From a virus, in the IMG/VR virus record IMGVR_UViG_3300006072_000018, positions 1 through 35,499 of that record: a stretch of DNA of 35,499 nucleotides; one strand, given 5' to 3'. Below are positions 3,179 through 9,306 of this stretch, piece by piece (position 1 is the first letter of the stretch; each line of letters opens with the position of its first letter). The notes below the pieces were generated by a model. The model worked only from the letters and a program-made list of their open reading frames with translations, had not been told where the DNA came from and did not search any database. Position numbers and translations under genes: made by a program.

Positions 3179-3402
3179 ACGGACTACTTCTAGCAGGTGC
3201 AATGATCGTCACTCCCGGTCAGGGCCTTGAGTACGTCGTGCCAACCACGGAGGGGTACAACGTAATTCGATTGGGGGAGAACGCAGGGGTCACGCAAGTG
3301 ATCCGCGTGGGCAACACGACGAACATCATCAGCCCGAACGAACCGACCACGTTTATTTATGGGAACGAAGAAGTGCTCCCAACTCTATCGGTGGACGAAT
3401 GA
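3175..3402 (+). CDS. Unknown small protein with beta-rich composition
   Basis: A 75-residue protein starting in an ATGA overlap. It begins with a short hydrophobic run (MNGLLLAGAMIV), too short and too weak to be sure of membrane insertion, and continues with alternating beta-type sequence (VIRLGENAGVTQVIRVG, then TTNIISPNEPTTFIYG). No family is recognised. Confidence 0.65.
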   Translation: MNGLLLAGAMIVTPGQGLEYVVPTTEGYNVIRLGENAGVTQVIRVGNTTNIISPNEPTTFIYGNEEVLPTLSVDE

Positions 3403-6197: not shown

Positions 6198-6479
6198 ATG
6201 CCACGGAACTATAAGCAGGAATGGGTAACCGAAAAAGCTCGCCAGAAGAAAAAAGGCGGTGTACTTGAAGCTAAGCTAGAGCGCCAACGCGCTCGGCGTA
6301 AGCTAGACAAGGATGGTGTAGATCGTAAGGGCAAGGACATTGCCCATAGGAAGGCGCTATCCAAGGGCGGTTCCAACAAGACGGGGTACTTCCTAGAATC
6401 TCCCAGTGCCAATCGTAGTTTCAAACGGAATAGTGATGGCTCTATGAAGGGTACGTACGATAAGCCAGAGAAAAAATGA
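6198..6479 (+). CDS. Small basic HNH-like protein
   Basis: A 93-residue, strongly basic protein with AAGGAG before its ATG. The region KDIAHRKALSKGGSNKTGYF, then SPSANRSFKRNSDG, follows the H...L..GG.N...N.........N pattern of a reduced HNH/His-Me finger nuclease (H50, N60 and N72 would be the equivalents). Proteins of this kind are common near phage replication genes. The N-terminal 45 residues are a basic helix. It may be nicking or structural; catalysis is uncertain because the motif is degenerate. Confidence 0.6.
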   Translation: MPRNYKQEWVTEKARQKKKGGVLEAKLERQRARRKLDKDGVDRKGKDIAHRKALSKGGSNKTGYFLESPSANRSFKRNSDGSMKGTYDKPEKK

Positions 6480-6705: not shown

Positions 6706-6742
6706 GATAGGCTCCTGCCACGGCCTTAACGTGGTTGCTATC
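6706..6742 (+). promoter_or_regulatory. Interrupted stem-loop upstream of the SNF2 gene
   Basis: One of the few intergenic gaps (6701-6752). CCACG (6718-6722) pairs with CGTGG (6730-6734) around a 7-base loop, and GATAG (6706-6710) pairs with CTATC (6738-6742) outside it. The internal loop is 7 bases on one side and 3 on the other. No T-run follows, so it is not a terminator. It ends ten bases before the SNF2 ATG, so it could control translation or RNA processing. Confidence 0.35.
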
Positions 6743-6752
6743 AGAGGTACAC

Positions 6753-9248
6753 ATGGAAATCGTAGAGGACCGCGCACTCATCGTGCGCACCCGCAATCCA
6801 GAGAAGATCACCGAAGTGATTCCGAAGTCTGCGGTAGTGAAGGAAGTTTCGCTACCCAATGGCAACGGCTACGAGGTGGCAGTCAAATGGAACCTGCCTA
6901 ACACAAAGATCCTTCGCAATCTGGGCTTCAAGAAAGCACCGGCTCCTATCGTGCGTCAATACGATTGGCCGGGGAGATACACGCCCTTCGATCACCAGAA
7001 GGAAACCGCCGCCTTTCTGACCCTCAACCGTAGAGCATTTTGCTGGAACGAGCAGGGGCTAGGCAAAACCGTGTCCGTTATCTGGGCGGCTGACTATCTC
7101 ATGAAGCTCGGGTTCATTCGCAGGGTACTCGTCATTTGCCCTCTGTCTATCATGGACTCAGCATGGAGAGCAGATCTATTCAGGACGGTCATGAAGCGTA
7201 GGGTAGACATTGCCCACGGATCGAAAGCCAAGCGAGCCAAGGTGATCGACTCCAATGCCGAGTTCGTCATTATCAACTACGATGGTGTGGAGTCCGTGCG
7301 TAGCGAGCTGGCTCTGGGTGGGTTCGACCTTATTGTTCTGGATGAGGCCAACTACATCAAGACAGCAACGACCAAGCGTTGGAAGATGATCAATAGCCTG
7401 ATCGGACCGGACACATGGGTGTGGATGCTGACGGGCACACCTGCGGCACAGAGCCCACTCGATGCCTACGGCCTCGCCAAGATGATGAATCCCACGAGTG
7501 TTCCGCAGTTCGTAGGGTTGTTCCGCGATCGAGTCATGCTGAAGATCAGCGCGTTCAAATACATCCCCAAACCCGAGGCACAGCAGGTAGTCCATGAGGT
7601 GCTTCAGCCTGCCATCAGGTTCACCAAGGATGAGTGCCTCGATCTACCAGAGCTTCTTTACTCTGAGCGTGACACGCCCCTCACAGCGCAACAGGAGAAA
7701 TACTACAAGCTCCTCAAGAAAGAGATGCTGATCCAAGTTGCCAGTGCAGATATCACAGCGTTCAATGCGGCAGTGGGTATGAACAAACTGTTACAAATAT
7801 CTTGTATTGCGTATAATACACCTGTACTTACAGACGTTGGGTGGGTACCGATTCAAGAAGTAACCACAGCGCATAGAGTGTGGGATGGTGAAGAATGGGT
7901 AGCACATGATGGGCTGGCATGTCGTGGGCTTAAAGAAGTGCGCGAGTGCTACGGTGTACGTATGACTTCGGACCATAGGGTTCTCACCACCGCAGGATGG
8001 CAGACAGCGGAGGATATTATTTATGGCAAATCCAGCAAAAGATTTAATAGGACAGAAGTTCGGGTACCTGACAGTTATAGAGAGAGCTGGAACGACGAGC
8101 GGAATTTCGGTGCAATGCGCGACGTGGCTTTGCCTGTGCGATTGTGGGCGGCGCGTAATTCGCAGGAGTCAGTATCTAAGAGCAAAGCACAGGAAGCACC
8201 CAAGAAGTTGCGGATGCCACCACGGCAACGAGAAACACAAAATGAGCAAAAAGCCAGTGTATTCAAACTATCACAGCATGGTAGCGCGTTGTCACGATCC
8301 TTTAGACAAGGACTACAAAAATTACGGAGAACGTGGAATTGTGGTGTGCGAACGCTGGCGGTCTTCATTCGAGATGTTCTGGTCGGATATGGGGCCTATG
8401 CACAAGGACGGGCTTACGCTAGACAGGATAGACAACAACGGCCCGTATTCACCGGAGAATTGCCGGTGGGCTACACCCAAGGATCAGGGGCGCAACACGA
8501 GGGTGAACATTCTTATAGACACACCGAATGGAAAAATGACTGTAGCACAAGCAGCAGAGGAATACGGACTCAAGTCTGTCACCTTGAGAAGACGCCTGAA
8601 GGCGGGTTGGCCTATAGATTTGGCACTGAAAGCGTCCCCAAACAAAGGGAAGCAACTTACGACCTACTTAACTGCGGACCCCGGTCTAGGTTTGTTGTAG
8701 CGGGGAAAGAAGGTCCCGTCATCGTCCACAACTGTGGGTCGGTGTATTCGGATAGCGGCGAGGTTGTCGAGTTCGACTGTAAGAATAAGTTAGAGGAGAT
8801 GCTTGAGGTCGTACAGGAGAGTAGCCACAAGGTTCTGATCTTCTGCAACTTCAGACATTCAATCGACATGGTACAGACGTACCTTGAGAAGCAGGGCATC
8901 ACTACGGCCACCATACACGGCGGGGTGTCAGCCAAACGCAGGGCAGAGATTTTCAATGACTTCCAGACTACGCCCAACCCGCACGTTCTAATCATTCAGC
9001 CTCAGTCAGCCGCGCATGGTGTCACTTTGACAGCGGCCAATACGATCATCTGGTTCGGTCCTGTGACCTCCGCAGAAATCTGGCTACAAGCGAACGCCCG
9101 AGTGCATAGAGCGGGGCAGAGAAACCCGTGCCTTGTGGTGAAGTTGGTTAGCTCAGCCGTGGAGCGCCAGCTCTACAAAGCTTTGGAGGAAAGGACTCTG
9201 GCGCAAGAAACTTTGTTAGATATGTATCAACAGGAGTTGACAGGGTAA
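6753..9248 (+). CDS. SNF2-family DNA helicase/translocase interrupted by an intein
   Basis: A DEXH-type dsDNA translocase of the SNF2 class, 831 residues before splicing and about 521 after. The start at 6753 follows CAGAGG at good spacing. Motif I is GLGKT (102-106), motif II is DEAN (197-200, in LIVLDEANYIK) and motif III is LTGTP (226-230). After the intein (351-660), the second RecA-like lobe shows VLIFCNFRHSID, AAHGVTLTAANTIIWFG and motif VI ANARVHRAGQ. The extein joint reads KLLQIS/CGSVY, a well-conserved spot between the lobes. A likely role is phage replication or recombination, in the polymerase-nuclease unit. Removing residues 351-660 gives an uninterrupted family match by eye. Confidence 0.93.
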   Translation: MEIVEDRALIVRTRNPEKITEVIPKSAVVKEVSLPNGNGYEVAVKWNLPNTKILRNLGFKKAPAPIVRQYDWPGRYTPFDHQKETAAFLTLNRRAFCWNEQGLGKTVSVIWAADYLMKLGFIRRVLVICPLSIMDSAWRADLFRTVMKRRVDIAHGSKAKRAKVIDSNAEFVIINYDGVESVRSELALGGFDLIVLDEANYIKTATTKRWKMINSLIGPDTWVWMLTGTPAAQSPLDAYGLAKMMNPTSVPQFVGLFRDRVMLKISAFKYIPKPEAQQVVHEVLQPAIRFTKDECLDLPELLYSERDTPLTAQQEKYYKLLKKEMLIQVASADITAFNAAVGMNKLLQISCIAYNTPVLTDVGWVPIQEVTTAHRVWDGEEWVAHDGLACRGLKEVRECYGVRMTSDHRVLTTAGWQTAEDIIYGKSSKRFNRTEVRVPDSYRESWNDERNFGAMRDVALPVRLWAARNSQESVSKSKAQEAPKKLRMPPRQRETQNEQKASVFKLSQHGSALSRSFRQGLQKLRRTWNCGVRTLAVFIRDVLVGYGAYAQGRAYARQDRQQRPVFTGELPVGYTQGSGAQHEGEHSYRHTEWKNDCSTSSRGIRTQVCHLEKTPEGGLAYRFGTESVPKQREATYDLLNCGPRSRFVVAGKEGPVIVHNCGSVYSDSGEVVEFDCKNKLEEMLEVVQESSHKVLIFCNFRHSIDMVQTYLEKQGITTATIHGGVSAKRRAEIFNDFQTTPNPHVLIIQPQSAAHGVTLTAANTIIWFGPVTSAEIWLQANARVHRAGQRNPCLVVKLVSSAVERQLYKALEERTLAQETLLDMYQQELTG
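7803..8732 (+). mobile_element. Intein in the SNF2 helicase
   Basis: A protein-splicing element of 310 codons. Block A starts at Cys351 (CIAYNTPVLTDVGWVPI). Block B is GVRMTSDHRVLTTAGW, with T405 and H408 of the TxxH motif. Blocks F and G are YDLLNCGPRSRFVVAGKEG and IVHN, ending H659-N660, and the next extein residue is Cys661. All catalytic residues for class 1 splicing are visible. The splicing parts total about 74 residues at the N side and about 30 at the C side. The roughly 210 residues between them are not a recognisable in-frame endonuclease: that DNA encodes an HNH protein in the +1 frame. Confidence 0.93.
8023..8700 (+). CDS. HNH endonuclease nested out of frame inside the intein
   Basis: A 225-residue homing-type endonuclease read in the +1 frame relative to the SNF2 gene. 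GCGGAGGA at 8007-8014 precedes its ATG by 8 bases, so it can be translated independently. Domains: a Cys-rich zinc part at about 34-66 (WLCLCDCG, then RSCGC); the HNH core at about 79-160 (YSNYHSMVARCHDP, KNYGERGIVVCERW, LTLDRIDNNGPYSPENCRWA); and a NUMOD-like helix-turn-helix at about 170-205 (MTVAQAAEEYG, LRRRLKAGWP). This is a well-known free-standing phage HNH layout. Its last 15 residues overlap intein block F. It presumably spreads the intein by cutting intein-less helicase genes (inference). Confidence 0.92.
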   Translation: MANPAKDLIGQKFGYLTVIERAGTTSGISVQCATWLCLCDCGRRVIRRSQYLRAKHRKHPRSCGCHHGNEKHKMSKKPVYSNYHSMVARCHDPLDKDYKNYGERGIVVCERWRSSFEMFWSDMGPMHKDGLTLDRIDNNGPYSPENCRWATPKDQGRNTRVNILIDTPNGKMTVAQAAEEYGLKSVTLRRRLKAGWPIDLALKASPNKGKQLTTYLTADPGLGLL

Positions 9249-9264
9249 TATAAGTGTGTAAAAT
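9237..9264 (+). promoter_or_regulatory. Strong sigma70-type promoter
   Basis: TTGACA at 9237-9242 (perfect -35) and TAAAAT at 9259-9264 (5 of 6 for -10) are 16 bases apart. The predicted start near 9271 leaves a leader of about 36 bases to the ATG at 9307, with AGGAG at 9296-9300. It overlaps the end of the SNF2 gene and would let host RNA polymerase boost the genes for the unknown 130-residue protein, the HTH protein and the ssDNA-binding-like protein. Confidence 0.6.
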
Positions 9265-9306
9265 GACCATACGCCGTTAGTGTAGCGGTTGATTTAGGAG
9301 TGGACG

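Follow-up and report, generated by a model that had tools for sequence, protein, structure and literature searches.

A phage helicase intein with a putative homing endonuclease gene nested in a second reading frame, and its many dual-coded relatives

The stretch of viral DNA analysed here (IMG/VR record IMGVR_UViG_3300006072_000018, positions 1 to 35,499; 35,499 nucleotides, hereafter the window) contains an SNF2-family helicase gene interrupted by an intein, and raises the question of how one element can keep the frame of its host gene open while an endonuclease is encoded in another frame of the same DNA. A preliminary description had located the intein, with its conserved blocks, in an open helicase frame and had proposed a separate HNH gene with its own ribosome binding site in the +1 frame. 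Every coordinate of the intein proved exact, as did its 310 residues, Cys1, TxxH, His-Asn and Cys+1, and the HNH gene was recovered as proposed, with 225 amino acids and a GGAGG ribosome binding site (Table 1). Our analysis indicates that this locus is very probably a dual-coded mobile intein, in which splicing, synthesis of the HNH protein and homing are the predicted activities.

Table 1. Coordinates of the helicase, the intein and the nested gene in the window, and of the fractured relatives
Feature	Location	Strand	Basis or remark
SNF2-family helicase gene (host)	6753..9248	+	Pfam SNF2-rel_dom 6e-22, Helicase_C 7.8e-18
Helicase N-extein	6753-7802	+	
Intein, 310 residues, stop-free in helicase frame	7803..8732	+	Blocks A, B, F and G kept in relatives; AlphaFold2 and Foldseek match inteins
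N-terminal splicing domain, residues 1-73	7803..8021	+	C1, T55 and H58 invariant in intein alignment; pLDDT 84-95 over residues 1-70; intein codon position 3 fastest
Block A	7803-7841	+	Cys1 at 7803-7805
Block B	7953-8000	+	TxxH (T55-S-D-H58): T55 at 7965-7967, H58 at 7974-7976
Shine-Dalgarno GGAGG of nested gene, within codons after block B	8009..8013	+	Duplex energy -9.5 kcal/mol
Nested gene for HNH endonuclease (225 aa) in +1 frame, with its own ATG start and TAG stop	8023..8700	+	ORF, profile matches, alignment, predicted fold, substitution pattern
In-frame linker, about residues 75-280, no recognisable domain	8025..8642	+	pLDDT mostly <50; hydropathy equal to stop-free synonymous shuffles
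Zn-ribbon-like cysteines of HNH protein (Cys39, Cys41, Cys63, Cys65)	8137..8217	+	HNH alignment: C39, C41 and C65 invariant, C63 nearly
HNH core of nested protein (YGxRG..VC..W ... LDRIDN..Y.P.NCRW...N)	8326..8502	+	Profile matches and alignment
C-terminal splicing domain, residues 281-310	8643..8732	+	pLDDT 84-93
Block F	ca. 8655-8702	+	
Block G, ends His309-Asn310	8709-8732	+	
Cys+1, first C-extein residue	8733-8735	+	
Helicase C-extein	8733-9245	+	
Fractured polymerase with split intein, HNH between halves	L396:1015-4226		
Fractured polymerase with split intein, GIY-YIG between halves	L401:1966-5545		
Fractured polymerase with split intein, HNH between halves	L046:973-4697		
Fractured polymerase with split intein, HNH between halves	L355:312-4018		

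The helicase frame runs without a stop from 6735 to 9248, with a Shine-Dalgarno (SD) energy of -7.1 at its ATG (6753), and the insertion splits the SNF2 and helicase-C domains at NKLLQIS/C (the slash marks the insertion point here and below). The hallmarks of a class 1 intein are all present, namely Cys1, the TxxH of block B, His309-Asn310 and Cys+1, and C1, T55, H58 and H309 are invariant across the intein alignment. The host gene is unbroken between the intein halves, hence the element is not a split intein, and the endonuclease domain is outside the splicing-domain frame. In the AlphaFold2 model of the intein, both ends (residues 1-70 and 281-310) reached pLDDT values of 84-95 and the middle was low, mostly below 50, a value that for the linker is no proof of disorder. 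A Foldseek search with the splicing-domain model retrieved solved inteins, including the Ssp DnaB mini-intein, with probability 1.00, and the modelled splicing domains thus have the HINT fold. The window protein (P0001) falls below the intein cut-offs of Pfam (no match) and NCBIfam (TIGR01445, 14.2 bits versus 24.5, E 0.064), which reflects the sensitivity of these curated models rather than a defining chemical feature.

The nested gene begins 9 nt after its GGAGG, and its product matched the PHROG profiles phrog_374 (E 2.8e-60) and phrog_3377 (E 5e-53), with residues R135, Y142, N146 and W149 of the HNH core invariant in the HNH alignment. A confident fold was also predicted for it (mean pLDDT 82.6), except for the last 13 residues, which partly overlap block F and are below 50. 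The putative catalytic activity is based on the PHROG homology, since neither the fold model nor the profile of the HNH protein found a match in the PDB. As to a dedicated internal promoter for the nested gene, a single 10/12 match was found at 7790-7817, at the intein start, and it is not above chance. Upstream of the helicase, a small ORF (6198-6479) with an HRKALSKGG..N stretch possibly encodes a small nuclease-like protein. HNH genes of phages are common in group I introns, but an intron of this kind, removed from the RNA, is a vanishingly improbable explanation here, as an Rfam search over 7400-9300 gave no match even at E 1, the host frame is stop-free and the intein blocks are conserved at the protein level.

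Relatives of the element were abundant. The intein-based search returned 55 viral loci and 195 phage records, and in the full-length relatives the intein frame was open and the HNH ORF lay in +1 or +2, with one exception, L015. In this locus (L015/L342) the intein frame is broken about 189 residues past the N domain and the HNH is altered too when compared with the near-identical L011, probably through a one-base indel or error. A total of 165 non-redundant inteins was extracted from phages, prophages and viral contigs, 160 of which hold an HNH gene that is out of frame and no shorter than 150 residues (82 in +1 and 78 in +2); an HNH in frame within the same intein family was looked for among the relatives and none was found. 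The search with the HNH proteins yielded 80 bacterial loci (9 nested) and 139 non-redundant viral loci (121 nested), the others being freestanding, in a sample that is conditioned on having an HNH and is corrected only in part by the HNH-blind sample described below. Among isolates, the dual-coded intein was identified in APSE-1, Caulobacter phage GB2A, Shewanella phage SFCi1, Salmonella phage LP31 and Gardnerella phage vB_Gva_AB1. The nested gene is annotated in the first and unannotated in the other four, as in most records examined here. In Salmonella phage SE2 (L065), unlike LP31, the polymerase frame is broken, through sequencing error or a real mutation; this locus was rejected as a broken intein gene, as the break sits in the extein just past an intact intein. 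Premature HNH stops in L074 and L077 were likewise rejected, being search extensions beyond a normal stop.

These relatives bear on two further readings of the window. In the first, the element would be an out-of-frame HNH insert whose in-frame product stays unspliced, and the resemblance to an intein would be coincidental or that of a dead intein; the same dual-frame layout has been published for the ShiLan domain, where splicing motifs are absent (PMC11855218). We consider it very unlikely here, because the splicing blocks are kept in the 165 relatives, both splicing domains are under purifying selection and their model matches the HINT fold, and mini-inteins of 121-168 aa that lack the HNH retain the splicing domains only. 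In the second, an indel (or an error of sequencing) would have shifted a once in-frame HNH out of frame and left it meaningless. The homing cycle is known to include a stage of endonuclease decay, and one relative of the APSE-1 type (L352) has an HNH truncated to 140 aa. Against it, the HNH is intact in 160 of the 161 long non-redundant inteins, its frame shows purifying selection, it has its own SD, its register is fixed in each subtype and many isolates carry it, and such decay is therefore extremely unlikely at this locus. Compensating indels or sequencing error, named in the preliminary description as what would overturn the dual-frame reading, are ruled out by many independent loci, including the isolates APSE-1, GB2A, SFCi1 and LP31.

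Concerning the openness of the helicase frame, the null model was a set of 2000 synonymous shuffles of the HNH gene, which preserve the protein and the codon usage. Shuffled versions of the window gene put a mean of 11.4-12.6 stops into the helicase frame, which none of the 2000 left open, against 0 stops observed; the third frame of the real gene contains 21. The same was seen at the 44 nested loci tested, each with 0 stops in the intein frame against expectations of 0.8-12.7 (shuffled codons) or 2.7-20.7 (host codon usage), the probability of zero stops being mostly <0.001. Codon choice carries the trace of this rule: in +1 nested genes, T ends none of the 792 two-fold codons at risk, those preceding AA, AG or GA, compared with 41% elsewhere (P 2.6e-156), and in +2 nested genes A or G ends none of 458 Leu/Val codons preceding A. 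Freestanding HNH genes show neither signature. Furthermore, in every freestanding relative both alternate frames are interrupted by stops (71 bacterial loci, minimum 2; 18 viral loci, minimum 4), while nested genes have none in the intein frame (130/130), a contrast that persists at matched G+C. An open frame arising by chance from base composition is ruled out by the synonymous nulls and the G+C-matched freestanding genes. Beyond the absence of stops, no extra constraint on the linker was detected, its hydropathy being no different from that of stop-free synonymous shuffles, which agrees with the earlier suggestion that the in-frame middle is a tolerated linker.

Substitution patterns point to selection on both proteins, as the fastest-changing site is the third HNH codon position in the middle of the element and the third intein position in its N zone and, less clearly, in its C zone. 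Between the window and its relative L001, identity was 88% in the HNH reading and 68% in frame 0. On this comparative evidence, purifying selection maintains both readings, intein and HNH. Moreover, SD duplex energies at the nested starts of the family had a median of -7.0 versus -3.0 at internal start-like codons (P 5e-19), and the N-terminus of the HNH protein aligns with the start of freestanding relatives; the SD is weak or the start unclear in some nested genes, mostly of the +2 type. In some members (e.g., L003 and L026) the HNH reading frame stays open for some distance before its ATG, as it should if programmed ribosomal frameshifting produced an intein-HNH fusion with the endonuclease attached to the splicing domain. 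Such a fusion is nonetheless very improbable, given that the SD and start sit where freestanding homologues start, and that the two groups, with their different registers, would each require a shift of a different kind. The claim of an unbroken splicing polypeptide together with a separately initiated, out-of-frame HNH protein is hence the one that the comparative data favour.

Three HNH subtypes were recognised, each with a constant register: the type of the window (n=77, always +1), a second (n=78, always +2) and a third (n=8 including remnants, +1). On the splicing-domain tree these types cluster strongly, with 6 changes versus 59.8 when shuffled, which suggests few capture events followed by wide spread to several polymerase sites and to the helicase site. 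The same insertion site is used in diverged helicases. The exteins of the window and of L001/L068 share 57-58% identity, with third positions near saturation (0.62-0.66), and are far less alike than the intein N-zone (75-79%) and the HNH (87-88%); the element would therefore have moved more recently than the host helicases diverged. Intein-less homologues, anticipated in the preliminary description, do exist in the helicases of Pseudomonas phage Rollin and Rhizobium phages, and their +1 residue is L or T, not C. Neighbouring sites are also occupied: in L054, L011 and L263 the insertion point is shifted upstream by a few codons, within the helicase motif that also holds the window's site (LTNK/CLQF, CLQI/CNGS), and polymerases have alternative adjacent sites as well (GGKL/CENI versus LVEN/CVQA). 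A relative of the window phage (L004) carries two elements, a +1 type in its SNF2 helicase and a +2 type in its polymerase, and another helicase (L078:963-4253) has, close to its Walker A motif (CVSADTEYLTPTGW...), an additional intein-like insert of a different kind.

A search blind to the HNH, using the N-terminal splicing domain alone, recovered 61 non-redundant loci. Of the 56 complete ones, about 50 have an HNH that is intact and out of frame and one has a remnant; three are mini-inteins and two are fractured genes. Forms with and without the HNH, which had been proposed as worth seeking, are thus both present in viral and phage sequences. The four short inteins of the 165-member set (L062, L051, L092 and L094; 121-168 aa) are mini-inteins that keep the splicing domains and have no intact HNH. 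One of them, from Streptococcus phage Javan422 (L062), retains an HNH remnant of 91 aa and an undisturbed intein frame, and in L092 and L094 there are two inteins in one polymerase. Across the endonuclease gene of the four fractured loci there is no open host frame. In L396, the polymerase N part and intein N half end at 3339, the intein C half and polymerase C part form a separate ORF, and the gap is spanned by an HNH gene whose SD is very strong. In L046 and L355 the polymerase with the fractured site has a contiguous dual-coded intein as well. Contiguous inteins, fractured genes and mini-inteins are thus found side by side in one family. Consequently, the suspected link to fractured genes with split inteins is real, L396, L401, L046 and L355 being of the same family, whichever form came first. 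Likewise, of the suggestion that the window represents a different or intermediate state, "different" holds, as the arrangement is stable and common (>160 non-redundant inteins, two registers); it is neither an oddity nor a clear intermediate.

Taken together, one mRNA most likely gives two products, a splicing precursor and a separately initiated HNH homing endonuclease. A ribosome in the helicase frame would make one long precursor, in which the N domain (1-73) and the C domain (281-310) would fold into a HINT splicing domain with the 200-residue linker looped out, and the intein would excise itself, leaving an active helicase. A second ribosome would start at ATG 8023 and produce the HNH protein, which may cut or nick helicase genes free of the insert, so that recombination copies in the whole 930-bp element. 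The likely reason for the out-of-frame layout is that a gene with its own stop fits a continuous intein only in +1 or +2, with the host frame stop-free. More tentatively, dual coding might be adaptive for the selfish element: entanglement with an essential host protein (polymerase or helicase) could shield the endonuclease from decay, since a frameshifting indel in its gene would destroy the host protein too, and a later loss of the linker frame could then lead to fractured genes and split inteins. This possibility, which we hold to be doubtful, is consistent with the intact HNH in about 50 of the 56 complete HNH-blind elements, with only one remnant, and with the four related fractured loci.

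An intein with an out-of-frame endonuclease was not found described in the literature searched, and priority is uncertain, since a preprint on actinophage inteins of "non-canonical architecture" (10.1101/2025.01.02.630785) is cited for overlapping frames in PMC11855218, the part of that source available to us being this citation. The family therefore appears to be a widespread, apparently undescribed variant of the homing-endonuclease intein, whose closest publication is the ShiLan element, which has no intein. As the same double-coded design recurs in >160 distinct phage inteins, comparative evidence argues that it is real, common and almost unannotated. It would add a third common arrangement of intein and endonuclease to the in-frame domain and the fractured gene, and it would explain an apparently meaningless 200-residue insert in many phage polymerases and helicases. 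Moreover, it provides a natural long gene entanglement (about 200 codons) with two registers and a clean codon-level signature, and makes testable how homing endonucleases escape decay and how split inteins arise.

Large inteins such as Sce VMA, which has an in-frame LAGLIDADG endonuclease, share with the window a HINT splicing domain and an endonuclease region between blocks B and F; in those inteins the endonuclease is part of the same polypeptide, whereas the window family encodes it as a gene of its own in +1 or +2. A separate, free-standing endonuclease ORF between the splicing halves is also seen in the fractured genes with split inteins that Dassa et al. reportedly described in 2009, but there host gene and intein are broken and in the window both are continuous. 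An in-frame HNH_3 intein is found in the dCTP deaminase of cyanophage CL131 (PMC6293099). A direct relative is APSE-1 (NC_000935.1), with an intein in the DNA polymerase P45 and the HNH gene P46 annotated inside it; its host is a polymerase, the site is another one, and the annotated P46 of 140 aa starts later than the 216-aa reading from an upstream GTG. The ShiLan domain and the Pacc40 gp60 insert are out-of-frame HNH elements in actinophage DNA methylases (Arsenault, Gosselin, Gogarten 2025, PMC11855218). Like the window family, they have a disjunct distribution and hide an HNH in another frame while the host frame is open through the insert; they differ from it in having no splicing motifs, a predicted retention in the protein and no detectable ribosome binding site, whereas in the window a full intein surrounds an HNH gene with an SD. 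Finally, in the STALEMATE system (PMC12455656) a second coding frame also overlaps an intein-containing gene, deliberately and for protection from mutation; that system is engineered, with a LAGLIDADG nuclease and a colicin immunity gene, and the arrangement in the window is natural.
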